Shown piece after piece: positions 394 to 39,681 of a DNA stretch of 64,000 nucleotides. Within the stretch, counting starts at the first letter, position 1. Each line of letters starts with the position of its first letter. The stretch is from Desulforadius tongensis (GTDB lineage Bacteria; Bacillota; Desulfotomaculia; Desulfotomaculales; Desulfohalotomaculaceae): contig NZ_JAFBCW010000001.1 in NCBI RefSeq assembly GCF_016907915.1, positions 62,001 to 126,000 of the forward strand, given 5' to 3'. Made by a program: the position numbers and the translations under genes. The notes under the pieces are model-generated. The model did no database searches. It was not told the DNA's origin and saw only the letters and a list, made by a program, of their open reading frames with translations.

Positions 394-2178
394 CTACCTG
401 CCGGCCTGCTGAACGTAGTTCTTCAGCAGTACAAAGGCAGCCCCCCGGGTTATACCTTCATCATTTTCTACAATCTTTTCCCATACCGGCTGCTTCTTAA
501 TCCATTTTTCAGAGAAAATATCTTCTAAATCGTCAACGGTTAACTCTTTATCCACACCGGCATACCGCTCTATTTTTTCCGGCAGGTCAAAGTTATAAAT
601 TTCCCCCAGCTTGAGCAGTATTTCTGCAAATTCCGCCGCGGTTACAGGCTCATCCAGGCGGTAATCATTAAAGTATTCTCCGCTGGCCAAACCGTGCCGG
701 CGCACAAATTTCAGCCCCTCATAGGCCCAGTGCTCCCGCAGCGGGGTTTTAACTGCAAAGGGTTTAATATCCATTCCCTGTTTATTTAATATATCCTGCA
801 GATCAGACATGATATATTTTTTCTGGGCCATTTTTCTAAAGGATATGTCTTTATCAATACTGATGGCAGCAGCAGCCCCGGCGGCCTGGCCGGTGGCCAT
901 GCCCACCGGAATAACCCGGGCACTGCCGTGGGCCAAAGAGTCAAAGCCGGCTGACCTGCCCACCACCAGCATGTTGTCTACTTTCTTGGGAACCAGGCAG
1001 CGGAAGGGAACGGCATACTGCTTGGGATTGCCCACTACAAAACCGGTGTTTTCCCGGTCTGTGGCCTGCACGTCCACCGGGTAAGAGCCAAAGGCCACCC
1101 GGTCATAAAAATCCCTGTTTTCCAGCACGTCGTCCACCGTCAGGCGGTATTCGGCATAAATATGCCTCGACTCCCGCACATACAGTTCCGGCGCCACCTC
1201 CGCCAGGTAGGCATTTTCAAATCCCGGCACATTTTCTTTTATATATTCCACCAGGGCGGGCAGCTCTTTCAAAGCTATAAGCCTGGCCTCTTTACGGGCT
1301 TCGGGGTCCAGCGGGTCTACATGGTAGATGTGCAGCGCGTTTATCAGCACGCTGCCGTCATTCTGCCGGCCGATGTTTAACCCCCGCACCCCCAGGCGGG
1401 GATTTTTAAATTGATATTTTTCCATTATTTCTTTAAATCCCCAGGCGCTGACGCTGTTGGCCCCGGTGTGTATGTCGTCATCGGTATTTAAGACCCGGCG
1501 TATTTTCAACCAGTCCCGGTCGGTAATTCCCGCCAGCTTAAATACCAGCGTCACGGCCATGGTTTTACTTTTATAACCCATATCCTCCTGGCCGAAGCTG
1601 AAGGGAACCCCTGCCCGGGCCGCAATGTCGGCATCCTGGGTGGCATCAATCAGCCTTTTACAGTAATACCTCTCGGTTTCGCCCTCTGCGTTCACCACTT
1701 TAATCCCTTCAACCTTCGCCCGGCGGTATTTTTTAGTAACTATCGGCTCAATCTGCCGCGCGTTCAGCAGCAGCCGGAGATTATCTTCCCGGGCTATCAT
1801 GCGGTTAAAAACCCGCCGGGCGGTGTTAACGTCAAAGGAATCCCCCTCTACCTGCTTATAAAACTCCAGAAAGATACCTTTGTTCAGTATTTCATACTTG
1901 GGGCCATAGGGGTTGGGGGCGTAGTTCATATCGATGGTATTCAGCCAGCCCCTGGTCATCAGCCCCCCCACTTCCGGGCGGGTATCCACCAGCAGGGTGT
2001 CCAGCCCGTTCCTGGCCCCGGAAATCGCCGCCGCGATTCCCTCCGGATCACTGCCCACCACAATCAGATCATATTCATGCTTGGCCCCTTCAACGGGAGA
2101 TATACTCATCGCCAGCAGCATCACCGTACAGAGCATTAAAATGCCGGTGCTAACTGCAATTCGTCTTACTGTCACCAC
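394..2178 (-). CDS. Exported FAD-dependent oxidoreductase with C-terminal SLH-like segment (copy 1)
   Basis: A 594-residue protein that begins with an N-terminal signal or anchor segment (residues 5-31). The FAD-binding Rossmann motif follows at 36-50 in the form VVGSDPEGIAAA, where GSDPEG replaces the usual GxGxxG. Next come LLVDTRPEVGG and GRSAGFDSLAHGSARV, and near residue 430 GMATGQAAGAAAA, all typical of the FAD_oxidored (PF12831) family. From about residue 483 the sequence HWAYEGLKFVRRHGL plus VTAAEFAEILL looks like one SLH repeat, and ITRGAAFVLLKNY near 574 like the end of another. The start is GTG with GAGGTG upstream, overlapping the preceding paralogue by 29 bases, which indicates translational coupling. 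The substrate is unknown. I infer an extracytoplasmic, wall-tethered flavoenzyme. Confidence 0.85.
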   Translation of the reverse strand: MVTVRRIAVSTGILMLCTVMLLAMSISPVEGAKHEYDLIVVGSDPEGIAAAISGARNGLDTLLVDTRPEVGGLMTRGWLNTIDMNYAPNPYGPKYEILNKGIFLEFYKQVEGDSFDVNTARRVFNRMIAREDNLRLLLNARQIEPIVTKKYRRAKVEGIKVVNAEGETERYYCKRLIDATQDADIAARAGVPFSFGQEDMGYKSKTMAVTLVFKLAGITDRDWLKIRRVLNTDDDIHTGANSVSAWGFKEIMEKYQFKNPRLGVRGLNIGRQNDGSVLINALHIYHVDPLDPEARKEARLIALKELPALVEYIKENVPGFENAYLAEVAPELYVRESRHIYAEYRLTVDDVLENRDFYDRVAFGSYPVDVQATDRENTGFVVGNPKQYAVPFRCLVPKKVDNMLVVGRSAGFDSLAHGSARVIPVGMATGQAAGAAAAISIDKDISFRKMAQKKYIMSDLQDILNKQGMDIKPFAVKTPLREHWAYEGLKFVRRHGLASGEYFNDYRLDEPVTAAEFAEILLKLGEIYNFDLPEKIERYAGVDKELTVDDLEDIFSEKWIKKQPVWEKIVENDEGITRGAAFVLLKNYVQQAGR

Positions 2179-4021
2179 TTAACACCTCACCCGCCTCTAT
2201 ATAATGCTTTAAAATCATATAAGCTGCACCGCGGGTTATTTTCCCGCCATGGTTTTCCACATTCTTCAGCACCTGCCGGTCAAAGAAGTTTAAACCCCTT
2301 AGATACCGGTAGGCTTCTTTCTTGGTCAATTGTTTTCCCTGATATTGAGTAATCATATACGAAACGTCTTCTATGGTCAGGGCGTTGCCTTCGGTATAAA
2401 GCACCGGTTTTTCAGCGCTGTCCCGCCCGGCAAGCCTGGTTATCCATGACAGCAGGTTGATAAAATTTTGTTCCGGCATTTCTTCATCCAAATTATACCG
2501 GTTGGAGTAACCGCCAAACACCAGGCCGTAACGGCGCACAAATTTTAAACCCTCATAGGCCCAGTGACCGGCTTCGGGGACCGGGTAGGAAAAGGGTTTT
2601 ATCTCCATTCCCTGCCGATTCAACCTTTCCCTTAACTGGGTGATTAATTCCCGGTTATAGCACATATCCCGCAGGCTGGTGTTCTTTTCCAAGCTCAGCG
2701 CCGCTGCCGCCCCGGCGGCCTGACCGGTGGCCATGCCCACCGGAATAACCCGGGCACTGCCGTGGGCCAAAGAATCAAAGCTGGCTGACCTGCCCACCAC
2801 CAGCAGCCCGTCCACTTTTTGGGGAACCAAGCACCGCAACGGAATGGCATACTGTTTGGGAACCCCCACCACCGCCCCCTTAAATTCCCTGCTCACCGCT
2901 TGAATATCAATGGGATAGGACCCAAAGGCTATGCCGTCGGCAAAATCCCTGTTTTCCAACACGTCATCCACCGTCAGCCGGTATTCACCGTAAATATGCC
3001 GGGACTCCCGCACATACAGTTCCGGCGCAGCGGCCGCCAGCTGAGCATGTTCCAAGCCGGGGATGTTCTGCCGCAAAAACTGCACAACACGGGGCAGTTC
3101 CCCTTCTGCCACCCGGCGGGCTTCCTGCAGCTGCTGTTCATCCAGCGGGTTAATCCCGTATACATGCAGGGCATTAACCAGCAGCGTGCCGTCCTTCTGC
3201 CGCCCGATGTTTAATCCCCTGATGCCCACCTGCTCGCTGGATGACCGGTATTCAGCCATTATATCGCCAAAGCCCCAGGCGCTGACCATGTTTATTCCGG
3301 CCCGTTCACCGGAGGCCCTGTTAGAAGCCAAACTAAACCCCATTTTCAGCCAATCCAAAGCGGAAACGCCCTTTAACTGGAACACCAGCGTAACGGCCAC
3401 ATACCTGTCTGTATAGCCCATGTCGCTTAAAGCAATACTGTAGGGCACACCGGCTGCCGCCGCTATGTCGGCATCCTGGGTGGCATCTATTACCACCCGG
3501 CCGTCAATTTTTCTAACGGTATTATCCTTCTCCACCACTTTAATGCCTGTTACCGCCGTTTTACCGGCGTTCATTACCGGCTTAATTTCCTTTACATCCA
3601 GCAGCACGCTTAAATTATCTTCATTTTCCACCATACGGTTAAAAACATTGAGCGCAGTGTTAACATCAAAGGAATCTCCCTCCACCTGCTTATAAAACTC
3701 CAGGAAGATACCTTTGTTCAGTATATCCCCGTTGGGGGCGTAATTCATATCAATGCTGTTTAACCATCCCCGGGTCATCAACCCCCCCAGCACCGGGCGG
3801 GTATCCACCAGCAGCGTGTTCAGCCCGTTTCTGGCCCCGGAAACCGCCGCCGCGATCCCCTCCGGGTCGCTGCCCACCACTATCAGGTCATATTCCGACA
3901 GCGCGGCAGGGGGTTTTTCCGGCGGTTTGGCCGCAAAAAATTTAGGTTCCGGCCTGTCCGTAAGATAAAACATGCCAAAACCCAGCAGCATTATCAGCAG
4001 CACTATTAAATAGCGTTTCAT
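2150..4021 (-). CDS. Exported FAD-dependent oxidoreductase with C-terminal SLH-like segment (copy 2)
   Basis: A 623-residue paralogue of the downstream gene, clearly a tandem duplicate: the FAD motif (VVGSDPEGIAAAVSG, from about residue 48), GGLMTRGWLN, YVRESRHIYGEYRLTVDDVL and the GMATGQAAGAAAA block are nearly identical. The N-terminus is a single membrane segment (residues 4-20) followed by a proline/lysine-rich linker (TDRPEPKFFAAKPPEKPP), so this copy may be membrane-anchored. The C-terminus has HWAYEGLKFVRRYGL and ITRGAAYMILKHY, the same degenerate SLH-like pattern. The ATG start has a GGTGAGG site and lies 30 bases after the stop of the small exported protein gene. The reaction and substrate cannot be deduced. 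Confidence 0.85.
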   Translation of the reverse strand: MKRYLIVLLIMLLGFGMFYLTDRPEPKFFAAKPPEKPPAALSEYDLIVVGSDPEGIAAAVSGARNGLNTLLVDTRPVLGGLMTRGWLNSIDMNYAPNGDILNKGIFLEFYKQVEGDSFDVNTALNVFNRMVENEDNLSVLLDVKEIKPVMNAGKTAVTGIKVVEKDNTVRKIDGRVVIDATQDADIAAAAGVPYSIALSDMGYTDRYVAVTLVFQLKGVSALDWLKMGFSLASNRASGERAGINMVSAWGFGDIMAEYRSSSEQVGIRGLNIGRQKDGTLLVNALHVYGINPLDEQQLQEARRVAEGELPRVVQFLRQNIPGLEHAQLAAAAPELYVRESRHIYGEYRLTVDDVLENRDFADGIAFGSYPIDIQAVSREFKGAVVGVPKQYAIPLRCLVPQKVDGLLVVGRSASFDSLAHGSARVIPVGMATGQAAGAAAALSLEKNTSLRDMCYNRELITQLRERLNRQGMEIKPFSYPVPEAGHWAYEGLKFVRRYGLVFGGYSNRYNLDEEMPEQNFINLLSWITRLAGRDSAEKPVLYTEGNALTIEDVSYMITQYQGKQLTKKEAYRYLRGLNFFDRQVLKNVENHGGKITRGAAYMILKHYIEAGEVLSGDSKTNCS

Positions 4022-33064: not shown

Positions 33065-34606
33065 CTAACTAACATTAGTTATTTCCATTGTGCTGTTACT
33101 TCCGTTCCACATTACACTGCAGCCAAAGCTTTCTGCTACAAAACGCGCCGGCAGCATTGTACGCCCGGAATGGATTTCCGGCATCACATCTATTTCTTTT
33201 ACCTCTCCATTAACGGTTATTTGCGGCTTTCCAATTGTTAATTCTAATTCTGTATCATCTTTTTTTAATGATACCTTACCACCGTTATAACTGATATTGT
33301 CATCCGCTATGCCCAGGGCATGGGCCAAGTACCTTACCGGAACGTAAGTACGATTATCTTTTACGTAAGGTGCAGCATCTATATCTACACGCTGATCATT
33401 ACACTGGTACTGTTTTTTTCCCACTGTAAAAAGAACCTTTAATTTTTCCTTAGGCTTTTGGCCTGTTTGGACTGCCGGTTCTGTTTTTTTATCTTTTTTA
33501 CTGATAGATTTAGTTTCATTATCGTCCAGCGCACTTTCCAGTAAACTGCTGTCAGTGAGTCTGTCCAGCGTCATAACTGCCACTTGATAGTTAGCCTCTA
33601 ACTCAGTTTTTTGAGCCTGCAGTCTGGCTAATGCAATCTTGGCTTCCAATACTTTATCCAGGGTAATTGTACCAACCTTATAGCTTGCTTCAGCAATTCG
33701 AACAGCCTCGTTGGCCTGTTCTATAGCATTCATAATTTGTTGATGGCCTTTATCCATTGCTTCTATGCCCAAACACAACTCCCTGACCGTTTTACGCAGG
33801 GTGTCTTTAGTATCATCAACCGTCATTTCAGCAGCACGCTGTTCCCGTTCTCCCTCATCATAATACTTGGCAAACAGTTTAGTTGTCTTTGCCAACTCGG
33901 CTGCTTCTTCTGCCGTCCATATTTCAAACGAGCTGCTCAGCGCCAAACCTATCAAACTATCAATATTACTTACATCAACTTTAGCGTAGTGAGTACTGTC
34001 TGTCAGCTTTGGTCTTTCATCTACATTATAACCAACAAGAACGTTCAGCTCGGCATATGCACTGTCTAATTCCTGTTGGCTTTTTTTAAGATCAGCTTTA
34101 GCCCCTTCCACCTTTGTTTTAGCTTCTAATAAATCAAGATTATTGGCCATCCCAACATTAACTTTGGCACTTACCTGCTTCAGTTCAATATCGGCTTTGT
34201 TCAGCGCAGCTTCTTTTTCCCGCACGTCAAGCTGTTTAGCCAGCACATCATAGTAGGCCTTATAAACGTCAATTACCAGTTTCTTTTTTTCATTTTCCAG
34301 TTCTTTTTTGGCCTTTCGATATTCAAAGTCCGAGCCGTAGTAATATCGGAAAAGGTTTGTTTCACCGGGCTCAAAACTGCGGTCAACGGGAGTATATCTT
34401 AACAGCTGGGCTGCATCATCACGATACCTTTCTTTGGTGTCAATGTCATCTTTAATTTTTTTAAGTTTGTTATTATAATGAAACGCCCTCTCTACGGCTT
34501 GATCAATGCTTAGGGTCTTAACATCTTCCACTGCCGCTGCCACCGCTGTAAATGCAAACAGCAGCAGTATAAAAACCGTACACGTGATTAAATTACGCTT
34601 TTTCAT
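33065..34606 (-). CDS. TolC-family (OEP) coiled-coil protein with C-terminal stalk (CuAO_N) domain pair
   Basis: 513 residues, ATG with GAGGTG 9 bases upstream. Signal peptide at 1-25. Residues about 30-350 carry the outer-membrane-efflux-protein repeat pattern: LSIDQAVERAFHYNNKLKK, long helices (VIDVYKAYYDVLAKQLDVRE, KVNVGMANNLDLLEAKTKVE) and the second repeat EASYKVGTITLDKVLEAKI. Residues about 390-513 are two CuAO_N/stalk modules (YVKDNRTYVPVRYLAHALG and HSGRTMLPARFVAESFG) closely matching those of the S-layer protein encoded upstream. OEP proteins normally form outer-membrane channels, but nothing else in the window suggests an outer membrane. I infer a surface protein in which the helical hairpin is held by the wall module. 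Confidence 0.88.
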   Translation of the reverse strand: MKKRNLITCTVFILLLFAFTAVAAAVEDVKTLSIDQAVERAFHYNNKLKKIKDDIDTKERYRDDAAQLLRYTPVDRSFEPGETNLFRYYYGSDFEYRKAKKELENEKKKLVIDVYKAYYDVLAKQLDVREKEAALNKADIELKQVSAKVNVGMANNLDLLEAKTKVEGAKADLKKSQQELDSAYAELNVLVGYNVDERPKLTDSTHYAKVDVSNIDSLIGLALSSSFEIWTAEEAAELAKTTKLFAKYYDEGEREQRAAEMTVDDTKDTLRKTVRELCLGIEAMDKGHQQIMNAIEQANEAVRIAEASYKVGTITLDKVLEAKIALARLQAQKTELEANYQVAVMTLDRLTDSSLLESALDDNETKSISKKDKKTEPAVQTGQKPKEKLKVLFTVGKKQYQCNDQRVDIDAAPYVKDNRTYVPVRYLAHALGIADDNISYNGGKVSLKKDDTELELTIGKPQITVNGEVKEIDVMPEIHSGRTMLPARFVAESFGCSVMWNGSNSTMEITNVS

Positions 34607-34711: not shown

Positions 34712-36793
34712 CTACTCCATGGAGATAACAACTTTCTTTTCTGCAGGAACGAAACCAACTTTTGCTCCGAAAGCTTCAGCTACGAAGCGTGCAGGCAGCA
34801 TGGTGCGGCCGTTGTTGATTTCAGGAGCTATATCCATGGTGGAAACCTGACCGTTAACAACCAGCTGGTTGGAACCAATGGTCAGCTCAACGGTGGTATC
34901 TCCTTTGGTCAGAGTTACAACCTTGTTAGCGTAGTCAACTTCTGCACCCAGAGCATTAGCTAAGTAACGAATAGGTACATAGGTGCGGCCTTCTTTTACG
35001 TAAGGAGCAGCATCTGCTACCTTGTAGCTGCCATCAGCCAGGTATACAGGTGAACCGATGGTGAACTCAGCAAAGCCGCCTTCTTTGTTCTCAACAGGAG
35101 TTACCAGGTTGGCTACTACAACTTCAGCTACTTTAGTTTCATCAAAGTTTTCACTGTCTTCTTCTGCATCTTCATCGTAGTTTTCAGCAAAAGCTTCACC
35201 TTTAACTTTTGCCTTGATCGGACCATAAGGTACGGTGCGGTCGATGGTTACTTTAATGTCAGAAATCTTAATTGCAGAAGGCTTGCTGCTTTGACTGTCT
35301 ACAGGAATGATCAGGATCTCGTCATCAGTATCAATGTCGTTGTCATCCAGTTCGAGGTTACCTTCGATTACCTCAACATCCGGAGTGCCGTCCCACTCAA
35401 CGCCGTCCGGCAGCTCAACAATGATGTTTTTGCCATCAAAGATAGCTTCATCTTCAACTTCGGTAATTACAATGTCGCCCAGCTCTTGAGTTTGAGTACC
35501 TAAAGTGGTGTCTACTGCTTCAGCTTCAACGGTTACCGGTGCAACAGCCTTACCAAGTACCAGTTCACCTTCTGCACCAGCGGAACCGCTGATCTCAGCT
35601 ACGATGTCACCGGTGAAGTCAGCAGCAATAGATACTTCCAGGGTAATTTCCCACTCAGTAGCATTCTTGCCATCATTATTTACTGTCCAGCTGGCTTCAT
35701 TATAGTCGTCACTATCTCTGCCGCCAGTCAGATCAGCATTACCATCTTTCTTGTCGATGTCAATGCTGTGAATTTTAACCCCTTCGGGCAGTTCCAGGTC
35801 AATGGTGCGGCCGTCAATTAAGCTTTCAGCCATGTTTTCATCAATTACAAAGGTAGCCAGTTCTTCTTCATTGTGACCGGCAATAACTGTGGGAACATCA
35901 TCAATTACTTCTAAAGTTACATCCCAGTCAGCATACTCAGCAACAACAACGTCTACCTGATCGAAGTCGTCACCTTCTACGCTGATTTCTACTTCACCGT
36001 AGTCAGCATCCTTGTCTACGTCAACAACCGGGGTGATTTCAACGATACCGCGCTCGGTACGGGATGTGCCAAGACCAGTTAACTCAATTGTAAGGTCGCG
36101 GCCATCTTTCTTGGTTATAGTAGCTGTTTTGCCTTCGAATCCACCAAACAGCTCTATTTTGCTGTTGTCCATACCACTGCCCCATTCAAAGTCCTTAGGC
36201 AGCTTCAGTTCGATTGTTTCGTCATCACCCAAAGAGTTCAAGGAACTTTCAGTGATGCGAATAACACCGCATACTTCATTGTTGTTTTGGCCGATGGTTT
36301 CGGTATCAACAACGGTTACTTCAGCATCGTCGCTGGAGGTACGACCAACAACATAAGTACCGCTGGTTACACCGGAATCCATACCGTCAACAACTGCTTC
36401 AATGTCGCCGCCTTCAAAATCATCGAGGTCAGCATATATCTTAATGCTAACTTTGTCAACAGCATCATCTTGAACAGCGGGGAATTTCAGATACAAAGTA
36501 TCCTTTGAGAAACGAATGTCATCTGGAGCAGGTGTACCGTATGCAAAAGTTACAACAGTTTGATCTTCATCCCACTCTGCACCTTTGGTAAGAGTGATTT
36601 TAAAAGTTTTGGTATTTAAGTCACTTACAAAATCTTCATCTTCTTGAATAGTTAAAGTTCCCAGCGGTTGTACCCCATCATCATCAACAGCTGGTACAGA
36701 ACTTACATGACCCTTGGTGTAAGCAAAGGCCGGAACAGCCATAGCAAATACTAAAGCCATGACCATCATAAAAATAGAAAACTTGCTTTTCAA
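34712..36793 (-). CDS. Probable major S-layer protein with C-terminal stalk (CuAO_N) domain pair
   Basis: 693 residues, TTG start at 36793 with AAGGAGG 8 bases upstream. Signal peptide about 1-24 (ends AVPAFA). Very acidic, no cysteine apart from one (NEVCGVIRI). At least four copies of a beta unit with an I-x-E strand and an LP turn (IRITESSLNSLGDDETIEL, FVIDENMAESLIDGRTIDL, IVITEVEDEAIFDGKNIIV), the same unit as in the 738-residue protein. Residues about 580-693 are two CuAO_N modules (YVKEGRTYVPIRYLANALGA, NNGRTMLPARFVAEAFGAKV). G/C-rich, evenly optimised codons, an unusually long leader with two ECF-like promoters, and a strong ribosome site all suggest high expression. Confidence 0.88.
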   Translation of the reverse strand: MKSKFSIFMMVMALVFAMAVPAFAYTKGHVSSVPAVDDDGVQPLGTLTIQEDEDFVSDLNTKTFKITLTKGAEWDEDQTVVTFAYGTPAPDDIRFSKDTLYLKFPAVQDDAVDKVSIKIYADLDDFEGGDIEAVVDGMDSGVTSGTYVVGRTSSDDAEVTVVDTETIGQNNNEVCGVIRITESSLNSLGDDETIELKLPKDFEWGSGMDNSKIELFGGFEGKTATITKKDGRDLTIELTGLGTSRTERGIVEITPVVDVDKDADYGEVEISVEGDDFDQVDVVVAEYADWDVTLEVIDDVPTVIAGHNEEELATFVIDENMAESLIDGRTIDLELPEGVKIHSIDIDKKDGNADLTGGRDSDDYNEASWTVNNDGKNATEWEITLEVSIAADFTGDIVAEISGSAGAEGELVLGKAVAPVTVEAEAVDTTLGTQTQELGDIVITEVEDEAIFDGKNIIVELPDGVEWDGTPDVEVIEGNLELDDNDIDTDDEILIIPVDSQSSKPSAIKISDIKVTIDRTVPYGPIKAKVKGEAFAENYDEDAEEDSENFDETKVAEVVVANLVTPVENKEGGFAEFTIGSPVYLADGSYKVADAAPYVKEGRTYVPIRYLANALGAEVDYANKVVTLTKGDTTVELTIGSNQLVVNGQVSTMDIAPEINNGRTMLPARFVAEAFGAKVGFVPAEKKVVISME

Positions 36794-37037
36794 CTTTGCT
36801 TCCTCCTTTAGTATAATATGTTTTTCTTTTGAAACTAGGAATCTGTTAGGCTTGGATTGCTAATCCTAAACCTCGCAGGCATTCCCCCTTTCAAAAAAGT
36901 TTAATATCAGCCCATTTGTTAGTCAGCTTATTGAATAACGTTCCAGTAAGCGGGCTTACAAGATCTATATTATTCTACAATAATCTCAAAAAACCTCTTC
37001 GATTTACACGTTTTTTATCTATCAACTTATTGTTATA

Positions 37038-37063
37038 GACGCAGTTCTTATTAATAAGTTCCA
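37038..37063 (-). promoter_or_regulatory. ECF-sigma-like promoter, proximal copy
   Basis: On the minus strand TGGAAC (37058-37063), 16 bases, CGTC (37038-37041). This matches the general ECF pattern of xGxAAC then CGTC at 16-17 bases. It directs transcription toward the S-layer gene, with a leader of roughly 240 bases. Confidence 0.45.
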
Positions 37064-37200
37064 TATTTTATTGCTTTTCCAGCTGTTTTTTAGCTGAATT
37101 CTTATCATCACAATAAGTTTGACGTAATACTTTACTTTTATGTTCCGCCTTTTTAAAAATTTTTTATACCCTATTCTAATTTTGGGCCTGCATAGTTATA

Positions 37201-37227
37201 GACGGGGTATTTTTTAAATAAGTTCCA
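37201..37227 (-). promoter_or_regulatory. ECF-sigma-like promoter, distal copy
   Basis: On the minus strand TGGAAC (37222-37227), 17 bases, CGTC (37201-37204), then TATAAC exactly as after the proximal copy. It begins at the last bases of the MBL-like gene, so it could also be an internal promoter of that unit. Confidence 0.45.
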
Positions 37228-37229
37228 CT

Positions 37230-38486
37230 TTACTTTTCTACCATACTGGTCCCTTTTTTTGATTTCGGTGCAGGCACTTGATTTATAATGTATCTGCTGC
37301 CATCAGTTTTCAAAATTATATGCTGGTTAAGCGTTTTATAAACTAAAATATTCCTTTGCTGCAGACGTTTTAGCACTTCTTCTGCAGGCTCATTTTCTTG
37401 ATCGCCAGTGCTTACACTAATAACTGCTGCTTGTGGGTTAACTTTTTCCAGCAATTCTTTTGACGTAGATTTATCGGATCCGCCGTTGGCCACTTTAAGG
37501 ACATCAGCTTTAATGCCCCCGACAAGATTTTTCTCCTGAGCTTTTAACATACCGCCGGTAAATAATACTTTAACTTTCCCGAACTTAAAGTAAGCCGCCA
37601 CTGAATTAGCTTTGGCATCATTGTAAAACCTGGGTTGGGTTAAAATTTGCACCGTTCCTTTGTCAAATTTAAAGGTTTGGCTGGCGTGGGTCTGCCTTAA
37701 AGCACCTGTCATTTGGACTAAATATTCATATTCCCTGTAAGCATCAGAATGGTCATCATAGCCGCTGTCTACAATATTTTTCACCGGAAAAGCCTTTAAT
37801 ACCGCCGGCACACCACCCATGGCCCCGGCATCGGTGTGGGTGATTACGAGCAAATCAATATCATCAACATTATGCTGTTTTAAATACTCCACTACTTTAT
37901 CACCATGTTCTCTATCGCCGGTATCAATTAAAATATCCTTATTACCGGGCAGCTGGATATACGCGGCTTCACCTCTGCCCACATCAATAAAATGAACCCA
38001 GGCATACTTATCTTCCGGTTTAACGGCCACACCGGTAAGCACCTCAGCCCGCCCGGTTGTATGGTTTATCTTTACATCATAGTTAAAGGCCCGGCACACC
38101 AGTTTAACCGGTACTAATATGTCCTTTCTGACACCGCATATTTTTACTGCCGGTTCCGGCAGTGTTACAGGCTTACCGTTTAAGTAAGCAGTTTTAGAAC
38201 CCGCCGTTACCTTAATTGTATTTACCGTTTCGTACAGGTCATTAAGCTGCACTTTTGCAGTTATGGTGCGGCAGTGTTTTGACGCAGCTGCTTCTCCGCC
38301 AAGCTTATTCACTGTTTCTGCCAAGGGAACCATAAAGGTACCCTTTGAAATCTGGGGTGGATTAATAAAATTCAATTCCACATCATCCACCAGCAGTTTA
38401 GGAGTACCGGAACCTGCATAAGCAGGTATAACAAAAAGAACACATGCCAGCAAAGCGGTAATTAATACAACCGTCTTTTTTTTCAA
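37230..38486 (-). CDS. Exported stalk-domain/metallo-beta-lactamase-fold protein lacking metal ligands
   Basis: 418 residues. Signal peptide about 1-24. Residues about 30-150 form a CuAO_N/stalk pair (KGTFMVPLAETVNKLGGE, RKDILVPVKLVCRAFNYDV). Residues about 165-400 are a ComEC-type metallo-beta-lactamase domain: VHFIDVGRGEAAYIQLPG, ILIDTGD, LLVITHTDAGAMGG, VKVLFTGGMLKAQEKNL, VLKVANGGSDKSTS, AAVISVSTGD. In active relatives these read SHPDADHIGG, TGD, HHGS and a late His. Here only the first His of the metal site remains; the Asp-His pair is Gly-Ala, TGD is TGG, HHGS is NGGS. It therefore looks like a pseudoenzyme. It lies upstream of the S-layer gene in the same direction. Confidence 0.85.
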   Translation of the reverse strand: MKKKTVVLITALLACVLFVIPAYAGSGTPKLLVDDVELNFINPPQISKGTFMVPLAETVNKLGGEAAASKHCRTITAKVQLNDLYETVNTIKVTAGSKTAYLNGKPVTLPEPAVKICGVRKDILVPVKLVCRAFNYDVKINHTTGRAEVLTGVAVKPEDKYAWVHFIDVGRGEAAYIQLPGNKDILIDTGDREHGDKVVEYLKQHNVDDIDLLVITHTDAGAMGGVPAVLKAFPVKNIVDSGYDDHSDAYREYEYLVQMTGALRQTHASQTFKFDKGTVQILTQPRFYNDAKANSVAAYFKFGKVKVLFTGGMLKAQEKNLVGGIKADVLKVANGGSDKSTSKELLEKVNPQAAVISVSTGDQENEPAEEVLKRLQQRNILVYKTLNQHIILKTDGSRYIINQVPAPKSKKGTSMVEK

Positions 38487-38604
38487 AGTAATCCCCCCTG
38501 AAATTATTCATAAATAATGTTTTGCTTTTAAAGCCGATGGCTTTATGCTGGTAAAAAATAAGCTCTTACTTTTTCGCTCTCCTAACCGCCTTTTTACAAA
38601 TTTA

Positions 38605-38631
38605 GGGAAGAACATTTCTCACGTTCTTCCC
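38605..38631 (-). terminator. Hairpin terminator after mbl
   Basis: Arms GGGAAGAAC (38605-38613) and GTTCTTCCC (38623-38631), followed on the minus strand by TAAATTTGTAAAAAG. It separates the conserved mbl/spoIIID block from the surface-protein region. Confidence 0.7.
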
Positions 38632-38643
38632 CATTTTTACCGT

Positions 38644-39681
38644 TTACCCCATTACTTTTTTAAACAGTTTTTTGCTTTTCGGATTGGGCAGCACGTTCAT
38701 CATGGCCAGCGCTTTTCCGGTGCCCTGGGCCACACAGCTGATGGGATCTTCGGCCACGTACACCGGCAGGCCGGTTTCCTCGCTGATCAAGCGGTCGAAG
38801 TTGTGCAGCAGCGCGCCGCCGCCGGTCATTACTATGCCCTTGTTTACAATGTCTGCCGCCAGTTCCGGCGGGGTGTGCTCCAGCACTTCTTTTACCGCCC
38901 CCACCACCGCTTCCAGCGGTTCCGTTATCGCTTCGTATACCTGGCTGGTGGATACCGTGATGGCTTTGGGCAGCCCGGTTACCAGGTCGCGGCCGCGGAT
39001 TTGGGTGCTGCGCTCGCTGTCCACCAGGGCGCTGCCCACTTCTATTTTTATTTCTTCGCCGGTTCTTTCACCAATCATCATGTTAAATTCTCTTCTGATA
39101 TAGCGGACTATGGCCTCGTCAAATTTATCGCCGCCCACCCTTAAGGAACGGCTGCATACAATGCCGCCCAGGGAAAGCACCGCCACGTCGGTGGTGCCGC
39201 CGCCGATATCCACCACCATAGAACCGCTGGCTTCGGATATATCTATGCCGGCACCCAGGGCGGCGGCCAGGGGTTCCTCTATCAGGTGGGCCTGTCTGGC
39301 ACCGGCCTGCAGCGCCGCCTGGCGCACCGCCCGTTCCTCCACCCCGGTTACGCCGGAGGGAATGCACACCATTACCCGCGGTTTTAAAAACCACTTTTTA
39401 GCCTTTACCCTGTTGATAAAATAGCGCAGCATTTTTTCCGTAACGTCGTAATCGGCAATAACGCCATCTCTCAAGGGGCGGATAGCCACGATGTTGCCGG
39501 GGGTGCGGCCGAGCATGCGGCGGGCCTCCGACCCCACCGCGATGATTTTCCCGGTATCTTTATTTATAGCCACCACAGAGGGCTCCTGCAGAACAATCCC
39601 CTTACCTTTAACATATACCAGGACACTGGCCGTGCCCAGGTCTATACCTATATCGGTTGAAAATCCCAGAAATCCAAACAT
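38644..39681 (-). CDS. mbl: MreB/Mbl rod-shape actin homologue
   Basis: 345 residues, family length. Actin-fold phosphate loops are evident: [19 protein letters not shown] at the N-terminus, [18 protein letters not shown] mid-protein and [16 protein letters not shown] near the C-terminus, with [16 protein letters not shown] between. It forms ATP-dependent filaments under the membrane that guide cell-wall elongation. The symbol mbl is chosen over mreB because the gene follows spoIIID, as mbl does in Bacillus, and no mreCD genes are present. SD GGGGAGG precedes the ATG. Confidence 0.93.

Follow-up and report, generated by a model that had tools for sequence, protein, structure and literature searches.

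Gene architecture and genomic context

The gene under study lies on the reverse strand at 37230-38486 of the 64,000-nucleotide stretch of Desulforadius tongensis DNA that we analyzed (the window), and encodes an exported protein of 418 amino acids that joins a CuAO_N1 domain to a ComEC-like metallo-beta-lactamase (MBL) fold depleted of its metal ligands. It is a genuine and whole gene that starts at TTG, with the ribosome-binding site AGGGGGG read directly about 7 nt upstream (38493-38499) and an open frame of 418 codons plus a stop, in which GC by codon position is coding-like; its codon usage was compared with that of the window genes. Residues 1-24 (MKKKTVVLITALLACVLFVIPAYA; 38415-38486) form a signal peptide without a lipobox, evident from the sequence and modeled by AlphaFold2 as a helix over residues 3-24. 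They are followed by a Cu_amine_oxidN1 domain (PF07833) at residues 33-145 (38052-38390), which scored 56.6 bits in Pfam against a cut-off of 24.2 and, together with the signal peptide, identifies the target as a CuAO_N1 surface protein. The MBL-fold domain spans residues 160-405 (37272-38009), with Lactamase_B at residues 175-358 scoring 37.4 bits in Pfam (gathering cut-off 22.7). The C-terminal Ada-like tail found in relatives is absent from the target, and in three of those relatives (L172, L201, and L215) one Cys of the Ada-like zinc domain is missing as well (PDxLC in place of PCxxC). The MBL domain is near neutral, with a net charge of -2 against -15 to -26 in the more acidic intact CuAO_N1 relatives that were checked, and a strongly basic DNA-binding surface was rejected on the basis of this charge.

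The gene is flanked on one side by mbl, an MreB-family gene (38644-39681, reverse strand) that forms the fixed end of an atpD-atpC-murA-spoIID-M23-spoIIID-mbl block. On the other side lie, on the same strand, the gene of a large exported protein with a C-terminal CuAO_N1 domain (34712-36793), which is putatively S-layer-like, and then that of an OEP/TolC-family protein that also carries a C-terminal CuAO_N1 domain (33065-34606). Such a TolC-family protein is unusual for a presumably single-membrane Gram-positive bacterium, and its homologues adjoin the large CuAO_N1 protein across the order. The region from 10000 to 38500 has a GC content of about 0.34-0.44, against 0.5-0.58 in its flanks, and contains surface polysaccharide genes along with CuAO_N1 proteins; this stretch may represent a surface island that evolves fast or was gained by horizontal transfer. 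Farther away in the window (394-4021) there are two similar tandem ORFs resembling exported FAD-dependent oxidoreductases.

Loss of metal ligands in a retained fold

The AlphaFold2 model, built with 77 eligible homologues, had a mean pLDDT of 88, rising to about 95 across the MBL domain. Its best structural matches were the ComEC MBL domain 9ic4 (Z 33.2, rmsd 2.0, 246 residues) and the pneumococcal esterase Pce (Z 28), followed by RNase J and others at Z of about 19 or less, and a PDB sequence search likewise returned ComEC MBL domains as the nearest solved relatives (9ic4, E 1.8e-22), in agreement with an NCBIfam search that also placed the domain closest to ComEC. These matches and the Lactamase_B score place the target in the MBL fold, and the high pLDDT together with the 9ic4 match predicts that the fold is intact despite the loss of ligands.

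When the target was mapped residue by residue on 9IC4, only two of seven ligand positions were kept, H217 (H598) and D219 (D600), as was S337, which corresponds to S728. The other mapped residues were replaced (D602 by G221, H603 by A222, D700 by G312, H725 by N334, and H726 by G335). In the alignment, the former HxHxDH motif reads THTDAGAMGG (37812-37841), TGD has become TGG (37551-37559), HHGS has become NGGS (37476-37487), and the GHP of relatives has become ENEP (37386-37397), with E366 in place of the late His; all four lie on the reverse strand. The canonical THPHEDHIGG/TGD/HHGS/GHP set is complete in L002 and the ComEC protein L003, which are the other ComEC-like MBL proteins found in the same genome, and in most aligned homologues, so the loss is not due to chance. 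In the ComEC protein of 9IC4, the H598A, D602A, H603A, and D700A variants are virtually inactive and D600A costs about five-fold in activity, so that D602, H603, and D700, all lost in the target, are each essential for nuclease activity (PMC12455585). At the level of the sequence, the target would thus be unable to assemble the usual two-metal site, and one weak mononuclear site that uses the remaining H217 and D219 is possible.

An active MBL enzyme has a complete set of HxHxDH or HxDxDH, TGD, HHGS, and the late His, and this set is broken in the target by G221, A222, G312, N334, and E366; with enzyme-family homology, lost catalytic residues, and a fold predicted to be retained, the protein qualifies on these grounds as a pseudoenzyme. 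More specific identities were rejected, namely ComEC/Rec2 (TIGR00361, 99 vs 190 bits, in a protein of 418 amino acids with a single N-terminal hydrophobic helix), an AHM/B3-like beta-lactamase (NF049846, 98.8 bits vs an NCBIfam exception cut-off of 590, with ligands lost), and a Pce-type teichoic acid esterase (no choline-binding repeats in the Pfam scan, with metal ligands lost). An initial annotation, made from the letters and their translated reading frames, had described an exported protein at 37230-38486 with a ComEC-type MBL fold and most metal ligands lost (THTDAGAMGG, TGG, NGGS, and the late His), and had proposed alignment with active ComEC domains. The start codon and ribosome-binding site, the signal peptide, and the structural model bear out this description, and the alignments with 9IC4 and with relatives, with five of seven ligand positions lost, confirm its account of the active site.

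Ligand loss across the order

We surveyed 117 distinct domains from 113 genomes of the order, and a contig scan built on intact-motif patterns was excluded from the counts of ligand loss. At least two of six core ligands were lost in 5/19 CuAO_N1-MBL proteins, 3/70 standalone MBL proteins, and 0/27 ComEC domains (CuAO_N1-MBL against the rest, Fisher p 0.003, ignoring relatedness); judging from their sequences, the ComEC domains and most standalone MBL proteins of the order keep their ligands. Six of seven locus members had lost at least three of seven ligands, as had about 1 of the 108 other MBL domains of the order (p 2e-8), a value that describes one lineage and not independent events, as the locus sequences are related. 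No relative with the target's own residues was present in the 113 genomes; searches of the family and the class were also empty, and a first contig scan with the target alone as query gave no matches.

Some depleted proteins were found outside the locus. L160 (genome G256), a CuAO_N1-MBL protein from another family of the phylum and in another gene context, reads TSTREEHFGG / ADA / NHGA / GWP, and its loss is apparently independent. L015 (G075) and L026 (G077), from sister species of one genus, have His-to-Asn changes at several ligands (NHGS, GNP), and L026 additionally has TNPNEEH and an N-terminus that looks truncated, so the two are a possible decay series. L079 is partly depleted.

A variable slot beside mbl

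Ligand-depleted MBL proteins occupy the identical slot, with mbl on one side and the large CuAO_N1 gene on the other, in G056, G050, G053, and G051, where the CuAO_N1 part of G051 is a separate short ORF. In G035 and G055 the MBL relative lies on the opposite side of the same pair of large CuAO_N1 and TolC-like genes; the G035 protein is depleted, and in that of G055 (L022) the six core ligands are kept and the late His alone is missing. In all, a relative stands beside this pair in six genomes of the order, four times in the identical slot and five times with ligand loss. By coordinates, no other MBL gene adjoined a large-CuAO_N1 match among the matches listed in the order, and the intact homologues of G002, G006, and G033, as well as the nearly intact one of G012, are at unrelated loci. 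In the target's own family, no MBL orthologue was found in the mbl slot, as G002, G006, and G001 have unrelated genes there.

The gap between mbl and the large CuAO_N1 gene (36794-38643 in the window, and L316-L321, L335, and L343) is a variable cassette position. Its occupant can be a depleted MBL protein, a CuAO_N1 plus beta-propeller protein, or a lone propeller-like ORF, and in some cases other CuAO_N1 genes lie there in opposite orientation. The slot of G052 encodes CuAO_N1 plus a beta-propeller and that of G054 a propeller-like ORF; the idea that these are more degraded MBL proteins was rejected because they have no MBL signal. The beta-propeller is often a non-catalytic binding fold. 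Since the slot is variable, shared position is not proof of shared descent.

Descent and constraint

In a tree built without the ligand motifs, the target grouped with L027, L028, L215, L172, and L201 (support 93/76) and, at the next level, with L022 (95/91). Constraining the target to a clade with the intact homologues of its genus and family was 24 log units worse (p-AU 0.002), a result to be read with a long-branch caveat, as the branches of the MBL tree, including that of the target, are long. Residues outside the metal site point in the same direction: M223 is present in 6/6 depleted locus members vs Ile in 18/18 intact proteins, L345 is present in 6/6 depleted locus members and in 1/18 intact ones (Phe in 17/18), and K236 is found in 7/7 locus members, with Glu in most intact ones. 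After removal of L022, L027, and L028 the target drifted to a placement of low support, and a tree of the N-domain was uninformative on the target because long branches meet. Since placement is weakened without these intermediates, synteny and shared residues carry the argument for orthology, and we consider it likely that ligand loss in the locus lineage goes back to a single descent.

The target and the proteins of genus g27 (the Desulfotomaculum reducens group) could instead have entered the variable slot separately and lost their ligands in parallel, given that MBL proteins anchored at the surface often give up catalysis. The variability of the slot, the existence of depleted proteins at other places (L160 from a different family of the phylum, L026 with its His-to-Asn changes, and L079 in part), and the instability of the target without intermediates are all compatible with such a history, under which the target would still be a pseudoenzyme. 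Independent losses do not readily account for M223, K236, and L345 in common, the 93/76 support obtained with the ligand columns masked, or the identical flanking genes, and we regard them as unlikely.

Constraint was measured on the g27 trio, whose full-length depleted proteins share 52-66% identity and have pN/pS values of 0.25-0.38 with synonymous sites saturated, similar to the value of 0.31 for the intact pair L004/L005. The depleted g27 members are therefore under constraint; the target itself had no close orthologue among the genomes searched. These data bear on local decay, in which an ordinary exported MBL enzyme would have been inactivated recently in the copy seen here, and the target gene would be turning into a pseudogene. 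Decay would be in line with the absence of a relative sharing the target's residues, its long branch, its missing Ada-like tail, and the presence of intact CuAO_N1-MBL proteins in sister genomes (36-39% identity). Against it stand the open frame, the good ribosome-binding site, and the coding-like codon-position GC, and the locus mates in other genera are themselves depleted, constrained, and marked by common non-ligand changes. The initial annotation had asked whether the losses are conserved in orthologues and had named intact-ligand orthologues as the sign of local decay: same-neighborhood relatives from other genera of sulfate reducers proved to be depleted in intact, constrained genes, and the intact homologues that we found occupy unrelated loci, with a joint clade rejected (p-AU 0.002). 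Decay thus appears quite improbable.

Detection of a locus relative in a surface proteome

The surface proteome of D. reducens MI-1 includes Dred_3143, which carries PF07833 and an MBL fold, as well as Dred_3141, a member of the TolC family (PMC4137172). The ATP synthase genes of this strain are Dred_3149-56 (PMC4759654), and if the MBL gene of G056 is numbered 3143, a count across mbl, spoIIID, M23, spoIID, and murA arrives at 3149 for atpC; by gene order and locus-tag count, L201 of G056 thus matches Dred_3143. As with the target, Dred_3143 combines CuAO_N1 and MBL domains and is encoded in the slot that has mbl on one flank and the large-CuAO_N1/TolC-like pair on the other; unlike the target, it keeps the Ada-like tail, and other residues replace its ligands. 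In the text available, the authors suggested antibiotic resistance and did not remark on ligand loss (PMC4137172). The residues at the ligand positions of L201 are T, S, E, H / D / D, H / Y, which makes antibiotic resistance unlikely for Dred_3143. The D. reducens surface extracts also contained cytoplasmic proteins from lysed cells, and detection of Dred_3143 therefore supports, and does not prove, surface exposure. With this reservation, the detection gives independent support to the surface location proposed in the initial annotation.

A probable non-enzymatic role

The reading of the target as an exported pseudoenzyme is supported because the fold is retained, the losses hit residues essential in ComEC, and the relatives in the same neighborhood are both depleted and constrained. 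We conclude that the target is probably a maintained non-enzymatic surface protein, and not a decaying gene or an antibiotic-resistance enzyme, and we favor, with moderate confidence, a pseudoenzyme with a binding or structural role. It is improbable that the target is still an enzyme that works with a single metal or a rearranged site (formed, for example, by H217, D219, D188, and acidic residues nearby) or by metal-free chemistry. In favor of such residual catalysis, H217, D219, D188, and S337 are kept, and the MBL domain still has seven His and many Asp. Against it, the domain has no Cys, a second set of conserved ligands is absent, even H217 and D219 are replaced in other locus members (KxA, TxS, TxR, SxT), and single substitutions of the lost residues virtually abolish ComEC activity (PMC12455585).

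As a maintained surface pseudoenzyme, the target would be exported by its signal peptide, and its CuAO_N1 domain probably anchors it, either in the cell wall or on other proteins of the locus that carry CuAO_N1, with the depleted MBL fold serving as a putative binding or structural head. The old groove may grip nucleic acid or an envelope polymer rich in phosphate and leave it uncut, since ComEC and Pce, the nearest relatives of solved structure, have DNA and teichoic-acid phosphorylcholine as their respective substrates, and the kept S337 corresponds to the DNA-binding Ser of ComEC, S728. The target, whose gene is linked to a locus of envelope type, would belong to a lineage tied to this mbl/large-CuAO_N1/TolC-like locus in several families of the order. 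That a beta-propeller can take the place of the MBL head in this slot is easier to reconcile with binding than with catalysis. A bolder and doubtful proposal is that, in a lineage of sulfate-reducing Bacillota, an MBL phosphodiesterase turned into a non-cutting, lectin-like head, housed in a dedicated slot of an envelope locus and interchangeable with a beta-propeller, which binds a phosphate-containing envelope polymer and helps to organize the cell surface.

Comparison with known systems

In the literature searched for CuAO_N1 and for the locus, where the D. reducens papers alone were useful, we found no description of a surface-anchored, locus-linked lineage of bacterial MBL pseudoenzymes. 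Annotations usually present ComEC-like MBL proteins as hydrolases or as resistance enzymes, and a locus-linked lineage without the metal site corrects this, while its pairs of intact and depleted proteins allow the role of the MBL fold without metal to be tested.

The C-terminal MBL nuclease domain of ComEC (9IC4) resembles the target in fold, motif order, and the Ser of the HHGS loop, with 29% identity, but the target is a soluble, exported protein without the membrane channel domain and with five of seven ligand positions lost. The pneumococcal teichoic-acid phosphorylcholine esterase Pce/CbpE (2bib, 1wra) shares the fold (Z 28) and the overall layout, in which a protein of the cell surface combines an MBL head with a module attached to the wall. 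Pce, however, is catalytically active with zinc and carries choline-binding repeats, whereas the target has lost the ligands and its presumed attachment module is CuAO_N1.

MBL pseudoenzymes are already known in eukaryotic RNA processing, where CPSF100 and INTS9 keep the fold, have lost the metal ligands, and act as non-catalytic partners; unlike the target, they are intracellular subunits, each paired with an active paralogue. They are also suspected in pneumococcal ComEC, as the MBL domain of Streptococcus pneumoniae ComEC is predicted to be inactive (PMC12455585). That domain, like the target, is ComEC-like and without catalytic metal residues, but it is part of a DNA-uptake channel and the target is a separate surface protein, whose lineage would extend the short list of known MBL pseudoenzymes to the surface of bacteria.
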